NCBI GenBank assembly: GCA_028693055.1
Contig: JAQUWD010000023.1
Coordinates: 1-52,081, forward strand
Direction of reading: 5' to 3'
Source: Eubacteriales bacterium
GTDB lineage: Bacteria; Bacillota; Clostridia; Christensenellales; Aristaeellaceae
Length of the DNA stretch: 52,081 bases
This document shows positions 7,825-30,909 of the stretch, piece by piece (position 1 is the stretch's first letter; each line of letters opens with the position of its first letter). A program made the translations under genes and the position numbers. A model generated the notes under the pieces. That model ran no database searches and was not told where the DNA came from. It saw only the letters and a list, made by a program, of their open reading frames with translations.

Positions 7825-9015
7825 ATGAAGGCGTACATTGAACCCATACAGACTGCACTTCTGTTTTTTCCTCTGGTAGCGTTCTTGTTTACGTTGCCCT
7901 ATATGTTTCAGCAGTATAACTGCCATGGTTCCATTTTGGTTCTGCGTACTCTCATCGTCTACTCCTTCATTCTCTACTTAATTTGCGCCTACTTTCTCAC
8001 CATTCTTCCTTTGCCGGAGATTGAAAAGGTGCGTACCCTCACCAGCCCCACCATTCAGCTGGTGCCTTTTCGGGAGGCGGTGGAGCTTTTCCATAAGTAT
8101 TCCATTGTGTGGAACTCGCTTTCCAGCGTCAAGGCCTTTATCCTCAACCGGGATTTCTTCCAAATCGCCGCGAATATCGGCATGACCATTCCTTTCGGTA
8201 TTTATCTGGGATACTATTTCGGTGCAAGTCTCAAAAAGACAATCCTTTTATCCTTCTGCCTCAGCCTGCTGTTTGAGGTTACCCAATACACCGGCCTATT
8301 TTTCATCTACCCTCGCCCCTATCGGTTAGCCGACGTAGACGATTTAATTACCAATACCTTGGGCGGTTATATCGGCTATTTAATCTCGCCGCTGTTTCGG
8401 AAAATTCTTCCCTCCAAGGAGCGCATGGATCAAATCGCCTTTAAGCGCAGTCATCGCGTATCTGTTTTACGCAGACTCTTTGCAGCCGGGGTAGACTGCA
8501 TGCTGCTGTTGGTGGTGGCAACCATTTTGCTAGGCGTTCTGCCCACGCCGCTATCGGGCGACAACTCCATGTTCGATCAAATCGCCTTTCTTTTTGGCTT
8601 TTATACCGCCATGGTACTACTCTATTTCGGCGTGATCGAGTGGCTCTGTCAAGGACGCACCGTTGGCAAGCTGCTTGTCAGGATCAGGCTGGGTGATGTT
8701 CGTACCAGCGGTCGGCCAAAGCTGTGGCAATGCATCGTACGCTACGGTATCTTTTATCTGATCGTGATCCCAGCGCCGGTTATGGTGCTGGTCATCCTTT
8801 CACTGCAGGGCGGCAAGTCGAGTGGTAACTCCGTTTTAGCTATGATCGTCTGTCTCTTCCTGATGCTGGTTTTCATCGTCTTTTGCGTGGCTACCATCAT
8901 CATGTCCTTTTCCAAAGGAAACCAGCTGCCTCACGGCTGGCTGAGCAAGACTGAAAATTTCAGCACTTTGAAAAAAGGAAAAGCCGTCGCTTCCGTCCCA
9001 AAAGTGGAGGCGTAA
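7825..9015 (+). CDS. VanZ-RDD fusion membrane protein
   Basis: A 396-residue integral membrane protein. The first half (to about residue 210) is VanZ-like: hydrophobic segments around 10-30 and 40-60, then NIGMTIPFGIYLGY, LSLLFEVTQY and ADVDDLITNTLGGYIGY, hallmarks of the family. VanZ homologues are linked to teicoplanin or other envelope-stress tolerance. The second half is an RDD domain (RRLFAAGVDCMLL, then QGRTVGKLL), found in small membrane proteins of uncertain transport role. Such fusions are known in Firmicutes. A GAGGGTG ribosome site precedes the ATG. Its 3' end runs straight into the first terminator hairpin of the repeat region. Confidence 0.82.
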   Translation: MKAYIEPIQTALLFFPLVAFLFTLPYMFQQYNCHGSILVLRTLIVYSFILYLICAYFLTILPLPEIEKVRTLTSPTIQLVPFREAVELFHKYSIVWNSLSSVKAFILNRDFFQIAANIGMTIPFGIYLGYYFGASLKKTILLSFCLSLLFEVTQYTGLFFIYPRPYRLADVDDLITNTLGGYIGYLISPLFRKILPSKERMDQIAFKRSHRVSVLRRLFAAGVDCMLLLVVATILLGVLPTPLSGDNSMFDQIAFLFGFYTAMVLLYFGVIEWLCQGRTVGKLLVRIRLGDVRTSGRPKLWQCIVRYGIFYLIVIPAPVMVLVILSLQGGKSSGNSVLAMIVCLFLMLVFIVFCVATIIMSFSKGNQLPHGWLSKTENFSTLKKGKAVASVPKVEA

Positions 9016-9018
9016 AAA

Positions 9019-9042
9019 GGAGCAGAGCGTCAGCTCTGCTCC
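9019..9042. terminator. Terminator hairpin, copy 1 of 3 at the VanZ-RDD/udk junction
   Basis: Arms GGAGCAGAGC (9019-9028) and GCTCTGCTCC (9033-9042). On the minus strand it is followed by TTTTTA, so it keeps the T-tract expected of the udk terminator, although two repeat elements now separate it from udk. Confidence 0.75.
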
Positions 9043-9045
9043 TTC

Positions 9046-9203
9046 GACTGTCAACTCCCCTGAAGAGGGTGTCGAGGGAGCCCGCAGGCTTCCCTGACTG
9101 TATTCGTATCGACCGGCTTTGCCGGTCGGGCGGGCAGTTTGCGGCAAAGCCGCAAACACTACCCGTAACTGGCGAAAAAGCGCGTAGCACTTTTTTGACA
9201 CGC
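9046..9203 (+). repeat. Terminator-nested palindromic element, copy A (158 bp)
   Basis: Begins GACTGTC and ends GACACGC; the ends form an imperfect inverted repeat. Inside are GACCGGC-TTT-GCCGGTC, GTTTGCGGC-AAA-GCCGCAAAC and an A-rich/T-rich hairpin at the right end. No coding potential is evident: ORFs across it are open by chance because of its composition. It is flanked on both sides by the local terminator hairpin. Copies B, C and D are elsewhere in this window. Confidence 0.85.
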
Positions 9204-9206
9204 GCA

Positions 9207-9231
9207 GGAGCAGCGCGGTCAGCTCTGCTCC
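9207..9231. repeat. Terminator hairpin, copy 2 of 3 (between elements A and B)
   Basis: GGAGCAGCGC (9207-9216), loop GGTCA, GCTCTGCTCC (9222-9231). It is the same hairpin as copies 1 and 3 with one changed base in the left arm (G-C pairing partly lost), which suggests relaxed selection on the middle copy. Confidence 0.75.
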
Positions 9232-9234
9232 TGC

Positions 9235-9392
9235 GACTGTCGAACCTCTTTAAGAGGGTGTCGGGGAAGCCCGCAGGCTTCCCTGACCGTATTCGTATCG
9301 ACCGGCTTTGCCGGTCGGGCGGGCAGTTTGCGGCAAAGCCGCAAACTATACCCGTAACTGTTAAAAAAGCGCGTAGCACTTTTTTGACACGC
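9235..9392 (+). repeat. Terminator-nested palindromic element, copy B (158 bp)
   Basis: Tandem, same orientation as copy A, separated from it only by a terminator hairpin. Ends GACTGTC and GACACGC and the two central palindromes are conserved. Scattered substitutions relative to A (for example in the first 40 bp) show that the two are not a very recent duplication. Confidence 0.85.
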
Positions 9393-9395
9393 GAA

Positions 9396-9420
9396 GGAGC
9401 AGAGCGGTCAGCTCTGCTCC
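9396..9420 (-). terminator. Terminator hairpin, copy 3 of 3, overlapping the end of udk
   Basis: GGAGCAGAGC, loop GGTCA, GCTCTGCTCC. On the minus strand it encodes the last residues and stop of udk (stop at 9410-9408 lies in the loop). It has no T-tract of its own because an element follows; the T-tract is behind hairpin copy 1. Confidence 0.7.
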
Positions 9421-10025
9421 CCTTTTAATACATCCCTTACATAACCCGCCAGTATGCTCACAATTCGGGCGTTTTGCCCACCGTGAGCCACAATCACGTC
9501 GGCTAGATCGATATAATTCCGAATATGTTTATCGTACATTGGCTTTACCGTGGTCAGGTACTGAACGGAGATATTGTCAATATTCCGTCCGCGCTCGTTG
9601 ATATCGCGGGTAATGCGTCGCAAAAGGCAAATATCCGGCTCCACGCTCATGTACAGCTTTAAAAACATCAGCTCGCACAGACGTTCATCATAAAAAACAT
9701 GGATACCCTCGATGATCAAAACATCCGTCGGCTCGATAAGCTCCTCCGTATCGTCCCGGCGATGATGGGAATAGTCATAGCGCTTGCGGGTAATGGGCTT
9801 TCCGTCCATCAGGGTTTTGATATCCTGCAGGAATAAATCGTGATCAAATATTTCCGGCTCATCATAATTTAACTGGCAGCGTTCCTCAAAAGAAAGGCTC
9901 GGATGATCCCGATAATAGCAATCGTGGTTTATGACCGTTGCGTTCTTGCCAATGGCCCGGCACAATTCATCGGCTAAAGTGCTTTTTCCGCTGCCGCTTG
10001 CGCCGCAGATCCCGATCACCAGCAT
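9408..10025 (-). CDS. udk: Uridine kinase
   Basis: A 205-residue uridine/cytidine kinase that phosphorylates the nucleosides to UMP and CMP in pyrimidine salvage. It starts MLVIGICGASGSGKST with the P-loop GASGSGKST. The NHDCYYRD, NYDEPEIFDHD and TRKRYDYSHHRR stretches are typical of Udk, as is RRITRDINERGR in the lid region. Length matches the family (about 205-215). The final codons lie in the left arm of its own terminator hairpin. It is transcribed from a clear promoter divergent from the diguanylate cyclase gene. Confidence 0.95.
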   Translation of the reverse strand: MLVIGICGASGSGKSTLADELCRAIGKNATVINHDCYYRDHPSLSFEERCQLNYDEPEIFDHDLFLQDIKTLMDGKPITRKRYDYSHHRRDDTEELIEPTDVLIIEGIHVFYDERLCELMFLKLYMSVEPDICLLRRITRDINERGRNIDNISVQYLTTVKPMYDKHIRNYIDLADVIVAHGGQNARIVSILAGYVRDVLKGEQS

Positions 10026-12410: not shown

Positions 12411-12435
12411 AATACCCGCCTATCCGGCGGGTATT
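12411..12435. terminator. Terminator hairpin, left copy, flanking element C
   Basis: AATACCCGCC, loop TATCC, GGCGGGTATT. On the minus strand it is followed by a T-rich run (TTTTTAAA), giving an intrinsic terminator for the DUF362 operon. It is identical over 25 bp to the hairpin at 12599-12623. Confidence 0.8.
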
Positions 12436-12596
12436 GACTGTCGAAAAACTCCCTTAAGAGGGTGTCGGGGGAGCCCGCAGGCTACCCTGACTATATTCGT
12501 ATCGACCGGCTTTGCCGGTCGGGCGGGCAGTTTGCGGCAAAGCCGCAAACATTACCCGTAACTGGCGAAAAAGCGCGTAGCGCTTTTTTGACACGC
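12436..12596 (+). repeat. Terminator-nested palindromic element, copy C (161 bp)
   Basis: GACTGTC to GACACGC, inserted exactly between two identical 25-bp terminator hairpins. By direct comparison copy C and copy D (30716-30876, opposite strand) differ at about one position, so at least one has moved or been converted recently. Internal palindromes are as in copy A, and the right-end hairpin AAAAAGCGC-GTA-GCGCTTTTT is perfect here. Confidence 0.88.
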
Positions 12597-12598
12597 TG

Positions 12599-12623
12599 AA
12601 TACCCGCCTATCCGGCGGGTATT
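12599..12623. terminator. Terminator hairpin, right copy, flanking element C
   Basis: Same 25-bp hairpin as 12411-12435. On the plus strand it is followed by TTTTC, so it can end transcripts from the diguanylate cyclase side. It lies 10 bp behind the DUF362 stop on the other strand. Confidence 0.8.
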
Positions 12624-18744: not shown

Positions 18745-19732
18745 CGGGCTGAGGATATAACGGCAAATCGGGGCATGGGGGTTCCGGCTTATGCATCATG
18801 CAGGGTTCGGGGCGCAGAAGGTATACCTCCAGCTTCACCTCCAGCCGCACCTCAAAGGTTTCATCCTCCGAGCAGCATTCGGCGCAAAGAAGCCGTACGC
18901 AAGGCACTACGAAGATACTGTTCTTCCAGCATTCCGATATCGGGCAGGCGGGCTTTAGGCTGATTTCCGCCTCCACCATTGAGGTTGCTTCATAGAGTTT
19001 CCCACGGCAATCCCTTACCTGACAGCATACGGGAATACATACGCGAAGATGAAGCCGGGTATCCGGCCCGTGGCTTTCCAGCGGCGTCCACCAAGGTTGG
19101 GCGCCGCTTTGCTGTACCATCAGCAAAGTAAAGGGCGGCTCGGCGCAGCAGGGCAGGCCTTCCAGCTTCAACGCCGTGCACAGATTCGGAATCACTCGCC
19201 GCTCGCATGCAATGATTTTTTGCAGCAGCACACTTTCCATGCGTGGGCGAACCGGCTTACAGCGGCAGCCCTCCTCGGGTCTGGGCTTGGGTGGCGGGCA
19301 ATGATGGTCGCAGGGCATGGTCTTGGGTGGCAGGCATGGCCGCGGCTTAGGCGGCTTAGGCGGGGGGCAGGGCCGCGGTCTGGGCGGATCGCAGGGCTCC
19401 GGCTTCGAGCACGGGCAGGGATGCTCTGGCTGATGACAGGGCTGCGGTCTAGGTCGGTCGCAGGGATCGGGCTTCGGGCACGGGCAGGGGCGCTCGGGCT
19501 GATGACAGGGCTGCGGTCTAGGCCGGTCGCAGGGATCGTGCTTCGGGCACGGGCAAGGCTGCTCCGGCTGACAGCAGGGTTCGGGGATTTTGCACGGGCA
19601 GGGCTCCGGCTTTGGGCGCGGCGGCGGGCAATAGGGTGCTGTCACCGGCCCGCAGGGATCCCAGCACTCCGTTTCGCAACGCCGTTTCTCTCTATCAGCG
19701 CACTCATGGCAGTCACAGGGGGGATGATGCAT
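18671..19732 (-). CDS. Cysteine- and proline-rich protein with three 23-residue repeats, unknown function
   Basis: A 353-residue protein I do not recognise. The first 160 residues are almost all Pro, Cys, Lys, Arg and His, with three 23-residue repeats at about 56-78, 79-101 and 102-124 (each with PCPC then KPDPCD/RPRPQPC). The rest (from about 164) looks folded, with beta-rich segments such as LRVCIPVCCQVRD and NSIFVVPCVRLLCAECC. No signal peptide is present. A spore-coat or exosporium-like cross-linked protein, or a metal-binding protein, is conceivable but not shown. The start is supported by GGAGG before the ATG. The last 25 codons overlap degV, so the true C-terminus may once have been shorter. 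Confidence 0.7.
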   Translation of the reverse strand: MHHPPCDCHECADREKRRCETECWDPCGPVTAPYCPPPRPKPEPCPCKIPEPCCQPEQPCPCPKHDPCDRPRPQPCHQPERPCPCPKPDPCDRPRPQPCHQPEHPCPCSKPEPCDPPRPRPCPPPKPPKPRPCLPPKTMPCDHHCPPPKPRPEEGCRCKPVRPRMESVLLQKIIACERRVIPNLCTALKLEGLPCCAEPPFTLLMVQQSGAQPWWTPLESHGPDTRLHLRVCIPVCCQVRDCRGKLYEATSMVEAEISLKPACPISECWKNSIFVVPCVRLLCAECCSEDETFEVRLEVKLEVYLLRPEPCMMHKPEPPCPDLPLYPQPVRPLPPCWQQCPADQAPYGWPRQG

Positions 19733-22605: not shown

Positions 22606-23003
22606 GCAGGGGCAGTGCCCCTGCACCCCGGACTGCTGTGGCAGGGGATGGGATGAAATCGCCCCACGACGGAGGGTCGCGGGGCTTCTGCGATGGGGTT
22701 TTACGCAGGGGCAGTGCCCCTGCAACCTGGACTGCTGCGGCAAGGGGTGGGGTGGGAATCGCCCCGCGACAGAGGGTCGCGGGGCTTCTGCGATGGGGTT
22801 TTACGCAGGGGCAGTGCCCCTGCAACCCGGACTGCTGCGGCAGGGAGTGGGGTAGAAATCGCCCCGCGACGGAGGGTCGCGGGGCTTCTGCGATGGGGTT
22901 TTACGCAGGGGCAGTGCCCCTGCAACCCGGACTGCTGCGGCAGAGGATGGGATGAAAATCGCCCCGCGACGGAAGGTCGCGGGGCTTCTGCGATGGGGTT
23001 TTT
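22606..23003. repeat. Array of four 100-bp GC-rich tandem repeats
   Basis: Units start at 22606, 22705, 22805 and 22905. Each has a 19-bp palindrome GCAGGGGCA-G-TGCCCCTGC, a middle segment with GGACTGCTG, an inverted repeat GCCCCGCGAC-GGAGG-GTCGCGGGGC and a tail TTCTGCGATGGGGTTTT. The unit length is not a multiple of three, yet long ORFs cross the array in several frames; these are composition artefacts. A single related copy lies at 26842-26938. The stretch holds no gene. Confidence 0.88.
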
Positions 23004-26996: not shown

Positions 26997-27407
26997 CCCC
27001 TGCTATCCCCTCCCCACCAAACCCACGTTTTTCCCCAACCCTCCCGCCGCTCCCCAACAGCGGCGATAGCGAGGGAGGCCAAAAGCCCCGCTCGTTTTGA
27101 AGGAGGATGAAGGGGCGCATGGGAGGCGGAAGCCCCTTCATGTCCCCGCCAAACTTCCATCGCCTCCCGAATAGCCTATTCCATTCATCACCCCCTGCCA
27201 TCCCCTCCCCGCCAAACCCGCGCTCTTTCCCCATTCTCCCGCCGCTCCCCAACAGCGGCGATAGCGAGGGAGGCCAAAAGCCCCGCTCGTTTTGAAGGAG
27301 GATGAAGGGGCGCGTGGGAGGCGGAAGCCCTCCATGTCCCTACCCAACTCCCATCGCCTCCCGAATAGCGCCCCGCCTCCTTCAAAACGGGCAATTTGGG
27401 CTTTTGG
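26997..27407. repeat. Two tandem ~195-bp repeats plus an inverted partial copy
   Basis: Units run about 26997-27175 and 27192-27369 (offset 194-195 bp) and share CCGCTCCCCAACAGCGGCG, a GGCCAAAAGCCCCGCTCG segment, TTTTGAAGGAGGATGAAGGG and CATCGCCTCCCGAATAGC. At 27373-27407 an imperfect inverted copy of the GGCCAAAAGCC...GAAGGAGG segment follows. Long ORFs crossing it on both strands are of low complexity (Ser, Pro, Arg, Gly rich) and are not credible. The region 26842-27490 contains no gene. Confidence 0.8.
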
Positions 27408-30676: not shown

Positions 30677-30687
30677 AATATTCATCA

Positions 30688-30711
30688 GCATCCCGGTCAA
30701 AACCGGGATGC
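30688..30711. terminator. pyrG terminator hairpin, copy 1
   Basis: GCATCCCGG, loop TCAAAA, CCGGGATGC, followed by only TT before element D begins. Identical to the hairpin at 30881-30904. Confidence 0.8.
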
Positions 30712-30715
30712 TTCA

Positions 30716-30876
30716 GCGTGTCAAAAAAGCGCTACGCGCTTTTTCGCCAGTTACGGGTACTGTTTGCGGCTTTGCCGCAAACTGCCCGCCCGACCGGCAA
30801 AGCCGGTCGATACGAATATAGTCAGGGTAGCCTGCGGGCTCCCCCGACACCCTCTTAAGGGAGTTTTTCGACAGTC
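30716..30876 (-). repeat. Terminator-nested palindromic element, copy D (161 bp)
   Basis: Inverse orientation relative to copies A-C: reading the minus strand, GACTGTC at 30876 to GACACGC at 30716. It differs from copy C at about one base. It lies between two identical pyrG terminator hairpins. Confidence 0.88.
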
Positions 30877-30880
30877 TGCA

Positions 30881-30909
30881 GCATCCCGGTCAAAACCGGG
30901 ATGCTTTTT
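30881..30909 (+). terminator. pyrG terminator hairpin, copy 2, with T-tract
   Basis: GCATCCCGG, loop TCAAAA, CCGGGATGC, then TTTTTG. Together with copy 1 it shows that the intact terminator was split by element D with the stem duplicated. Confidence 0.82.

Follow-up and report, generated by a model that had tools for sequence, protein, structure and literature searches.

Duplication of whole target hairpins around IS1182-type elements and a MITE family, and the likely origin of a hairpin-element array behind udk

The question raised by the DNA behind udk in a 52,081-nt stretch of a Christensenellales genome (contig JAQUWD010000023.1; this whole stretch is called here the window) is why a hairpin of the host locus should occur there in three copies, alternating with two copies of a palindromic element. 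A sequence-only reading of the window had described the order hairpin, element A, hairpin, element B, hairpin, and had held that simple tandem duplication does not explain a host hairpin duplicated with each element. The layout was confirmed by inspection of the sequence, by a tandem repeat search and by folding: a 189-nt tandem of 2.1 copies with 91% matches spans 9017-9420, and consists of three hairpins alternating with two palindrome-rich element copies. The features of the array are the following.

9014-9018, minus strand: T-tract of the udk terminator, seen as an A-run on the plus strand, left of hairpin 1 (read from the sequence)
9017-9044, no strand: hairpin 1 (H1), copy of the host terminator with a 12-bp stem and a 4-nt loop (folding and stem search)
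9044-9205, plus strand: element A, a MITE copy with changed outer end bases (copy alignment; the span 9043-9206 is also used)
9203-9235 (core 9207-9231), no strand: hairpin 2 (H2), copy of the host terminator with one changed base, its stem reaching into the ends of A and B
9233-9394, plus strand: element B, a MITE copy, sister of A (copy alignment and tree)
9396-9420, no strand: hairpin 3 (H3), copy of the host terminator with the udk stop codon in its loop, followed by a plus-strand T-tract (sequence, folding and stem search)
9408-10025, minus strand: udk open reading frame, 205 aa, with orthologues in the genus (name taken over from the sequence-only reading, without a family search)

Both arms are common to H1 and H3 (GGAGCAGAGC / GCTCTGCTCC), and H2 shows one change relative to them, located in its left arm, as had been read; to this it can be added that the H1 loop is one G shorter. 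The udk stop codon (9408-9410) lies inside the H3 loop and the minus-strand T-tract (9014-9018) behind H1, again in agreement with the earlier description. The pairing of H2 extends outward (CGCAGG...CCTGCG, 9203-9235), with outer pairs that enter the element ends and that differ from the equivalent bases beside H1 and H3, which are T and A; this would follow if the hairpin arms were kept matched. Folding of the stretches with H1, H2 and H3 as single-stranded DNA gave -14.6, -15.7 and -12.5 kcal/mol, with z-scores of -7.2, -4.3 and -4.3, respectively. Since a plus-strand T-tract (CCTTTT) is located behind H3, the ancestral hairpin was probably the terminator of both convergent genes. Other tandem arrays of the window are found at 22606-23002 (4 x 100 bp), 26997-27369 (about 2 x 195 bp) and 19368-19621 (69-bp units).

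Two other copies of the element lie in the window, with the same hairpin-element-hairpin layout as in the udk array and with different hairpin sequences.

12411-12435, no strand: left hairpin of the second MITE locus (stem search)
12434-12598, plus strand: MITE copy, locus L011 (genome search and copy alignment)
12599-12623, no strand: right hairpin of the second MITE locus, identical to 12411-12435 (stem search)
30687-30713, no strand: hairpin of the third MITE locus (stem search)
30714-30878, minus strand: MITE copy, locus L010 (genome search and copy alignment)
30880-30906, no strand: second hairpin copy of the third MITE locus, identical to 30687-30713 (stem search)

A search of the own genome with a 164-letter query returned at least 44 places, at least 42 of them covering 122 to 164 letters, and two of the 44 listed being short self-palindrome matches; this count is a lower bound, as 40 of 77 candidates were scored. 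A pattern search for the right end revealed further copies: seven additional places were fetched, of which six were used and the seventh, L057, was without element, and 49 MITE hits were collected in total. The element is about 165 nt long, multicopy, without a transposase gene and associated with a target duplication, so that it answers to the description of a MITE. Its ends are CAGACTGTCGAAAAA and, inverted, CAGCGTGTCAAAAAA. No Rfam match at the gathering threshold was obtained for the MITE in the window, and six sub-threshold matches appeared in five loci, the best with 32.9 bits versus a cut-off of 114. The interior (window 9043-9206 together with the relatives L068, L076, L077, L080 and L083) contains four hairpins; among 13 sequences, 17 of the 49 predicted pairs show changes of both partners in one sequence or more. 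In the five relatives this core, perhaps a structured RNA or an older family of repeats, occurs, by eye, without terminal repeats or hairpin duplication.

The flanks of the copies were compared by an ungapped test in those 41 copies for which both ends and 50-nt flanks could be located, leaving out eight of the 49 hits with an end not located or beyond the contig edge. A direct repeat of the flanks (score of at least 12) was present in 26 of the 41 copies versus 2 of 1640 mismatched left-right pairs, and the flanking hairpin sequence was locus-specific. Fifteen copies fail this test, among them element A, because its hairpins differ by a 1-nt loop indel; element B passes. One of the 26 passing, L046, has a repeat of 12 nt and no hairpin. 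When the test was rerun without boundary slack, again 26 copies passed, with the dyad exactly central in 20 and repeat lengths of 12 to 44 nt. More than 20 MITE loci with a single copy show the hairpin-element-hairpin layout with unrelated hairpins. The hairpin can thus be assigned to the host locus, as the sequence-only reading had maintained. It had also proposed a genome search for elements between matching hairpins, in which most loci turned out to be flanked by a doubled, locus-specific hairpin, and it had named two contrary outcomes (unrelated flanks at other loci, or hairpins identical at all loci), neither of which occurred.

The same picture was obtained with related MITEs of two other genomes of the genus, G006 and G008, which are 74-88% identical over the matched parts and have ends such as CAGACTGTCAAAAAA...GACAAACTG: the locus-specific hairpin is doubled, by eye, at each of the 7 loci for which both flanks were available, two of them apparently going back to a single shared insertion. 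In 16 of the 26 own-genome loci with a repeat (L023, L013, L015 and others) the two hairpin copies are no longer identical, and in L023 a compensatory A-T to G-C change distinguishes them, which suggests that both copies may be under continued selection or subject to arm-to-arm correction. At two own-genome loci, L020 (contig C71) and L021 (contig C48), a common left flank of about 60 nt is unlike the hairpin on the right side, so the left host junction seems to have been replaced by another repeat.

Concerning autonomous relatives, the same-genus genome G002 contains an IS1182-type element with ends of the MITE kind and a hairpin at each side, the two hairpins being different. Its longest open stretch was used as a tblastn query and led to 80 named loci. 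The ends were chosen on the terminal-repeat match alone, the flanks being ignored, after a stricter pattern had recovered 22 of the 80 loci. This gave 46 loci with both ends and flanks, and the other 34 were dropped (no end pair, or a flank too short); the 18-nt ends of the 46 agree at 11-17 positions, 11 being the acceptance threshold. The ends CAGnCTGTC(R)AAAA(A) are common to the autonomous relatives, including the G002 element and a fragment in G001, and to the MITE (CAGACTGTCGAAAAA / CAGCGTGTCAAAAAA). Seven proteins were run against the IS1182 model NF033551: five full-length transposases (L159, L260, L262, L236 and L257) scored 375-487 bits (cut-off 270), and for the partial stretches of L192 and L093 it was the best match, below the cut-off; the remaining autonomous loci are known from tblastn only. 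In an alignment of 17 transposases D145 and D273 are invariant and E400 nearly invariant, and we take these residues to be the DDE triad. A structure model based on the 17 sequences (pLDDT 80.4) yielded weak RNase-H-like fold matches only, none at an E value of 0.001 or better, and was uninformative as to how the target is recognised; no solved structure related to the transposase by sequence was found at E values up to 1.

In the autonomous set the relationship between duplication and hairpin could be quantified. A direct repeat of 20-39 bp was present in 31 of the 46 complete copies versus 2 of 2070 mismatched pairs, with 30 distinct duplications among the 31, L146 and L147 being the same insertion. 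The duplication was centred on the hairpin dyad, with zero offset, in 30 of the 31, and its length was accounted for by the hairpin span also in 30, in 25 of them exactly and without offset. It ended in T in every case and began with A in 26, and the right hairpin copy was followed by a T-rich stretch (at least 4 T in 6 nt) in 25. A hairpin adjoined both ends in 44 of the 46 copies by a lax criterion, which is met by 17% of random positions; by a strict one (a perfect stem of at least 7 pairs within 1 nt of the IS end), hairpins were found at 33 left ends, 35 right ends and both ends of 31 copies, versus 116 of 12429 random positions (0.9%). The element ends themselves contain subterminal palindromes (score of at least 8) in 40 left and 38 right ends of the 46, versus 0.3% of 920 internal 50-mers, and these may help recognition or supply terminators.

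The duplication extends over Clostridia, Bacilli, a Fusobacteriaceae bin and a Providencia plasmid. It was seen in 11 of the 11 copies found in Chakrabartyella piscis, the genome of which is complete, one with a 1-nt indel and two with identical flanks. Among relatives on plasmids and phages (Bacillaceae, Acetoanaerobium, Enterococcus, Streptococcus phages and Providencia), 11 of the 19 loci examined had repeats of 18-30 bp at either end; those of L237 and L263 lie one or two bases off the hairpin centre, and L229, L231, L233, L234, L239, L259, L261 and L264 have no duplication. Concerning the genome of the window itself (assembly 94.6% complete), no close autonomous partner for the MITE was found in it. 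The element with the full IS1182 transposase of this genome (26% identity to the query) was considered as partner and rejected, since its ends differ (GGGGCTGTCTCAAAA); no hairpin was seen by eye beside it. In the same genome (L067:1-290, contig C51), the left end of a MITE copy is directly adjoined by an IS1182-type end that carries this other terminal repeat (GGGGCTGTCTCAAAA, also present in L053).

A more direct view of the insertion was given by empty sites. Empty plasmids exist for two related insertions, that of Enterococcus faecium (L262) and that of Providencia (L260). The empty records (L266 for the former; L267 and L268 for the latter) contain one hairpin with A- and T-tracts, and the filled sites contain two; when the flanks of the filled sites are joined across a single hairpin copy, they align across the empty site, as inspected in the full alignments with L266 and L267. 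The records L265 and L269 carry the element and were left out. The presence of one hairpin in empty sites and of two in filled ones indicates that insertion duplicates the host hairpin. So, the empty site with one hairpin and T-tract that the sequence-only reading had predicted was met for these two insertions, but not at udk, where no true empty site was found among sister species because their flanks have diverged. The udk end was located by motif in 13 of 15 sister loci, five of which have, by eye, one unrelated hairpin behind the stop codon, and no alignable flanks behind udk were seen among these loci. In one of the sister species (L243, genome G006) udk is closely followed by another element, one end of which is like CAGGCTGTTGACAAAG. 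When phages were searched with the flanks of phiJH1301-3 for an empty site, no record besides phiJH1301-3 itself covered 80% of either flank.

Another point to be considered is that strict duplication was absent in 15 of the 46 autonomous copies. One of them, L166, has a duplication with a 1-nt indel. The remaining 14 have a hairpin on each side in 12 cases by the lax criterion and in 7 by the strict one, but the two hairpins are different; L183 and L201 are the copies without a hairpin on each side. Judged from record titles, 13 of the 14 are uncultured or metagenome-bin records. Duplication was found in 15 of 16 isolate loci versus 17 of 30 loci of uncultured or bin records (p 0.016), 10 of the 16 isolate loci coming from one genome and not being independent. 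This concentration is suggestive only, and points to recombination between copies or misassembly, which is the likely origin of the misfits. That the two ends of one element were joined to two separate hairpins is a possible, though less likely, reading of the same copies. In ISEfa7 none of the 4 records, which comprise two distinct left junctions, had a doubled hairpin.

If a single insertion yields hairpin-element-hairpin, it has to be explained how the udk locus came to have two elements. A tree of 39 aligned copies pairs A with B as closest relatives (FastTree support 0.94). They have six departures from the consensus in common, three of which are absent from the rest of the 39 copies, among them a change at the left outer end, and the outer ends are altered in both. 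In plain identity A does not stand nearer to B (0.901) than to the commonest copies (0.909), and the sister relation is therefore based on the changes that the two share. Two sisters (support 0.92), with 11 changes in common, also make up the second double locus, L039. From this comparison of copies, the array is most likely the product of one insertion with hairpin duplication, followed by tandem duplication of element plus hairpin. The sister relation makes the second repeat better understood as this later step than as an independent insertion of B into a hairpin copy made by A. The latter reading has in its favour that every insertion yields another target and that the ends of B sit at the hairpin as expected; the six common changes, three of them exclusive, speak against it, and we regard it as unlikely. 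If A had hopped locally, into its own flank, the sister relation would also be accounted for, but more steps are required. Tandem duplication of a host segment containing hairpin and element, without any transposition, is a much more improbable account. It finds support in the 189-nt tandem and in the sister pairs A/B and L039, which make a tandem step probable here, but it is refuted as a full explanation by the empty sites with one hairpin and by the layout of the more than 20 single-copy MITE loci and of the autonomous IS copies, and stands for the second copy only. The earlier argument on tandem duplication thus holds for the layout as a whole and not for the second copy, for which a tandem step is likely; similarly, insertion does duplicate the hairpin, but this need not have happened separately for A and for B, as they are sisters.

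Taken together, hairpin-duplicating transposition of the IS1182 type, with MITE relatives and a later tandem step, is in our opinion the probable explanation of the window locus. The elements of the window would be MITEs, that is, non-autonomous relatives of IS1182-family elements with ends CAGnCTGTC(R)AAAA, presumably moved by a related IS1182 transposase. The enzyme would take as target a palindrome, usually the hairpin of an intrinsic terminator, whatever its sequence, and, as a DDE transposase, would join the element 3' ends to it, each one being attached, on its own strand, to the 5' foot of the palindrome. A whole palindrome would then separate the two cuts, and gap repair would leave a full hairpin copy on each side, so that the target sets how long the duplication is (20-39 bp in the autonomous set). 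At udk, one insertion would have given hairpin-A-hairpin, and a tandem duplication, possibly between the flanking hairpins, the present array. The dyad symmetry of the duplications and the match between repeat length and hairpin are what cutting at the feet of a palindrome predicts, and not what a fixed ruler would. The target may be cut as a cruciform or extruded hairpin, possibly with a role of supercoiling in the targeting, and termination may be kept after insertion. A broader proposal, about which we are evenly divided, is that a widespread branch of the IS1182 family cuts the strands of an extruded palindrome, one at each foot, the stagger being the palindrome itself. Insertion into a terminator would then be nearly harmless, because a hairpin is retained at each flank and subterminal palindromes are present in the element ends themselves, and hairpin-element arrays could grow, because each insertion adds one target copy.

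The alternatives to this mechanism differ widely in plausibility. The one that deserves most attention, possible if somewhat less favoured, keeps the same transposase and lets the hairpin be recognised as single-stranded DNA (for instance, on the lagging strand), or as linear duplex with a protein ruler, instead of as a cruciform. Dyad symmetry alone cannot separate a cruciform from two single-strand hairpins, and the copies with different hairpins at the two ends fit an attack of the ends on separate hairpins; as for the ruler, a fixed one does not explain duplications of 20-39 bp that track hairpin size. Small palindromic elements at intergenic sites also bring to mind REP/RAYT, IS200/IS605 or IS110/IS1111 elements, which target palindromes as well; REP/RAYT and IS200/IS605 depend on an HUH Y1 transposase, and none of these families is known for long target duplications. 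The duplications here are long and the tested relatives with matching ends encode IS1182 transposases, which places the window elements outside REP/RAYT and IS200/IS605 and makes kinship with any of these groups very improbable. Less credible than any other reading is that the hairpins belong to the element and travel along with it. The hairpin beside both ends in 44 of 46 located copies (lax criterion) is what it would predict, but there are 30 distinct sequences among 31, mismatched pairs do not match, and the hairpin is present in the empty sites, which refutes it.

Concerning known systems, the IS1182-family elements IS1272 and TnSha1 of staphylococci have stem-loop targets, often terminators, without sequence consensus, and their insertion is reported, in the parts of the sources considered, to delete or replace the stem-loop without target duplication (PMC5678879, PMC4923244). 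In contrast, the stem-loop is kept whole and doubled here, and no replacement of the IS1272 type was found in the two insertions compared in filled and empty form. Beside the IS1272 replacement, figure 13 of PMC5678879 draws duplication of the whole hairpin as a hypothetical pathway b, to which the mechanism proposed here would correspond. For ISCbo5/ISbma2, of the same family in Clostridium, all insertion sites but one are gene-end hairpins, likely transcription stop signals, and the text on ISCbo5 uses the phrase 'surrounding hairpin' (PMC3098183); a duplication of the hairpin is not stated in the parts considered, the string 'duplicat' being absent from the main text. The direct repeats of 2 to 60 bp listed by ISfinder for the IS1182 family, as quoted in PMC7335449, are consistent with duplications of palindrome size; the part of that article considered gives no link to target structure. 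Bacterial MITEs are described as short, palindromic, intergenic and without coding capacity (PMC10969869), traits in which the window MITE resembles them; IS1182 and hairpin are absent from the main text of that article. Whole-hairpin duplication as an observation was not found in the open-licence literature searched, in the parts considered, which included PMC5678879, PMC4923244, PMC3098183, PMC7335449, PMC11708052 and PMC10969869. In IS1562, as annotated in Streptococcus phage Javan87, a 26-bp hairpin is duplicated around the element.

The targeting of terminator hairpins by the IS1182 family is thus already published for IS1272 and ISCbo5 and is not claimed as new. What is added is the symmetrical duplication of the whole hairpin, the empty sites and a MITE family that behaves alike. 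An earlier statement of the duplication could be contained in the 2006 genome paper on C. novyi-NT, cited for ISCbo5, the abstract of which reportedly claims a new type of transposition that may be hairpin duplication. It is usually the transposase that is held to determine the length of a target duplication; in the present elements this length changes with the target, and the duplication is symmetric about the dyad, which makes the question of cruciform cutting by transposases directly testable. A simple reason is also offered for the location of such elements at gene ends, and annotators may find in paired terminators the mark of an insertion. With respect to the family as a whole, IS1272, which replaces the hairpin, becomes linked to members of the same family that duplicate it.
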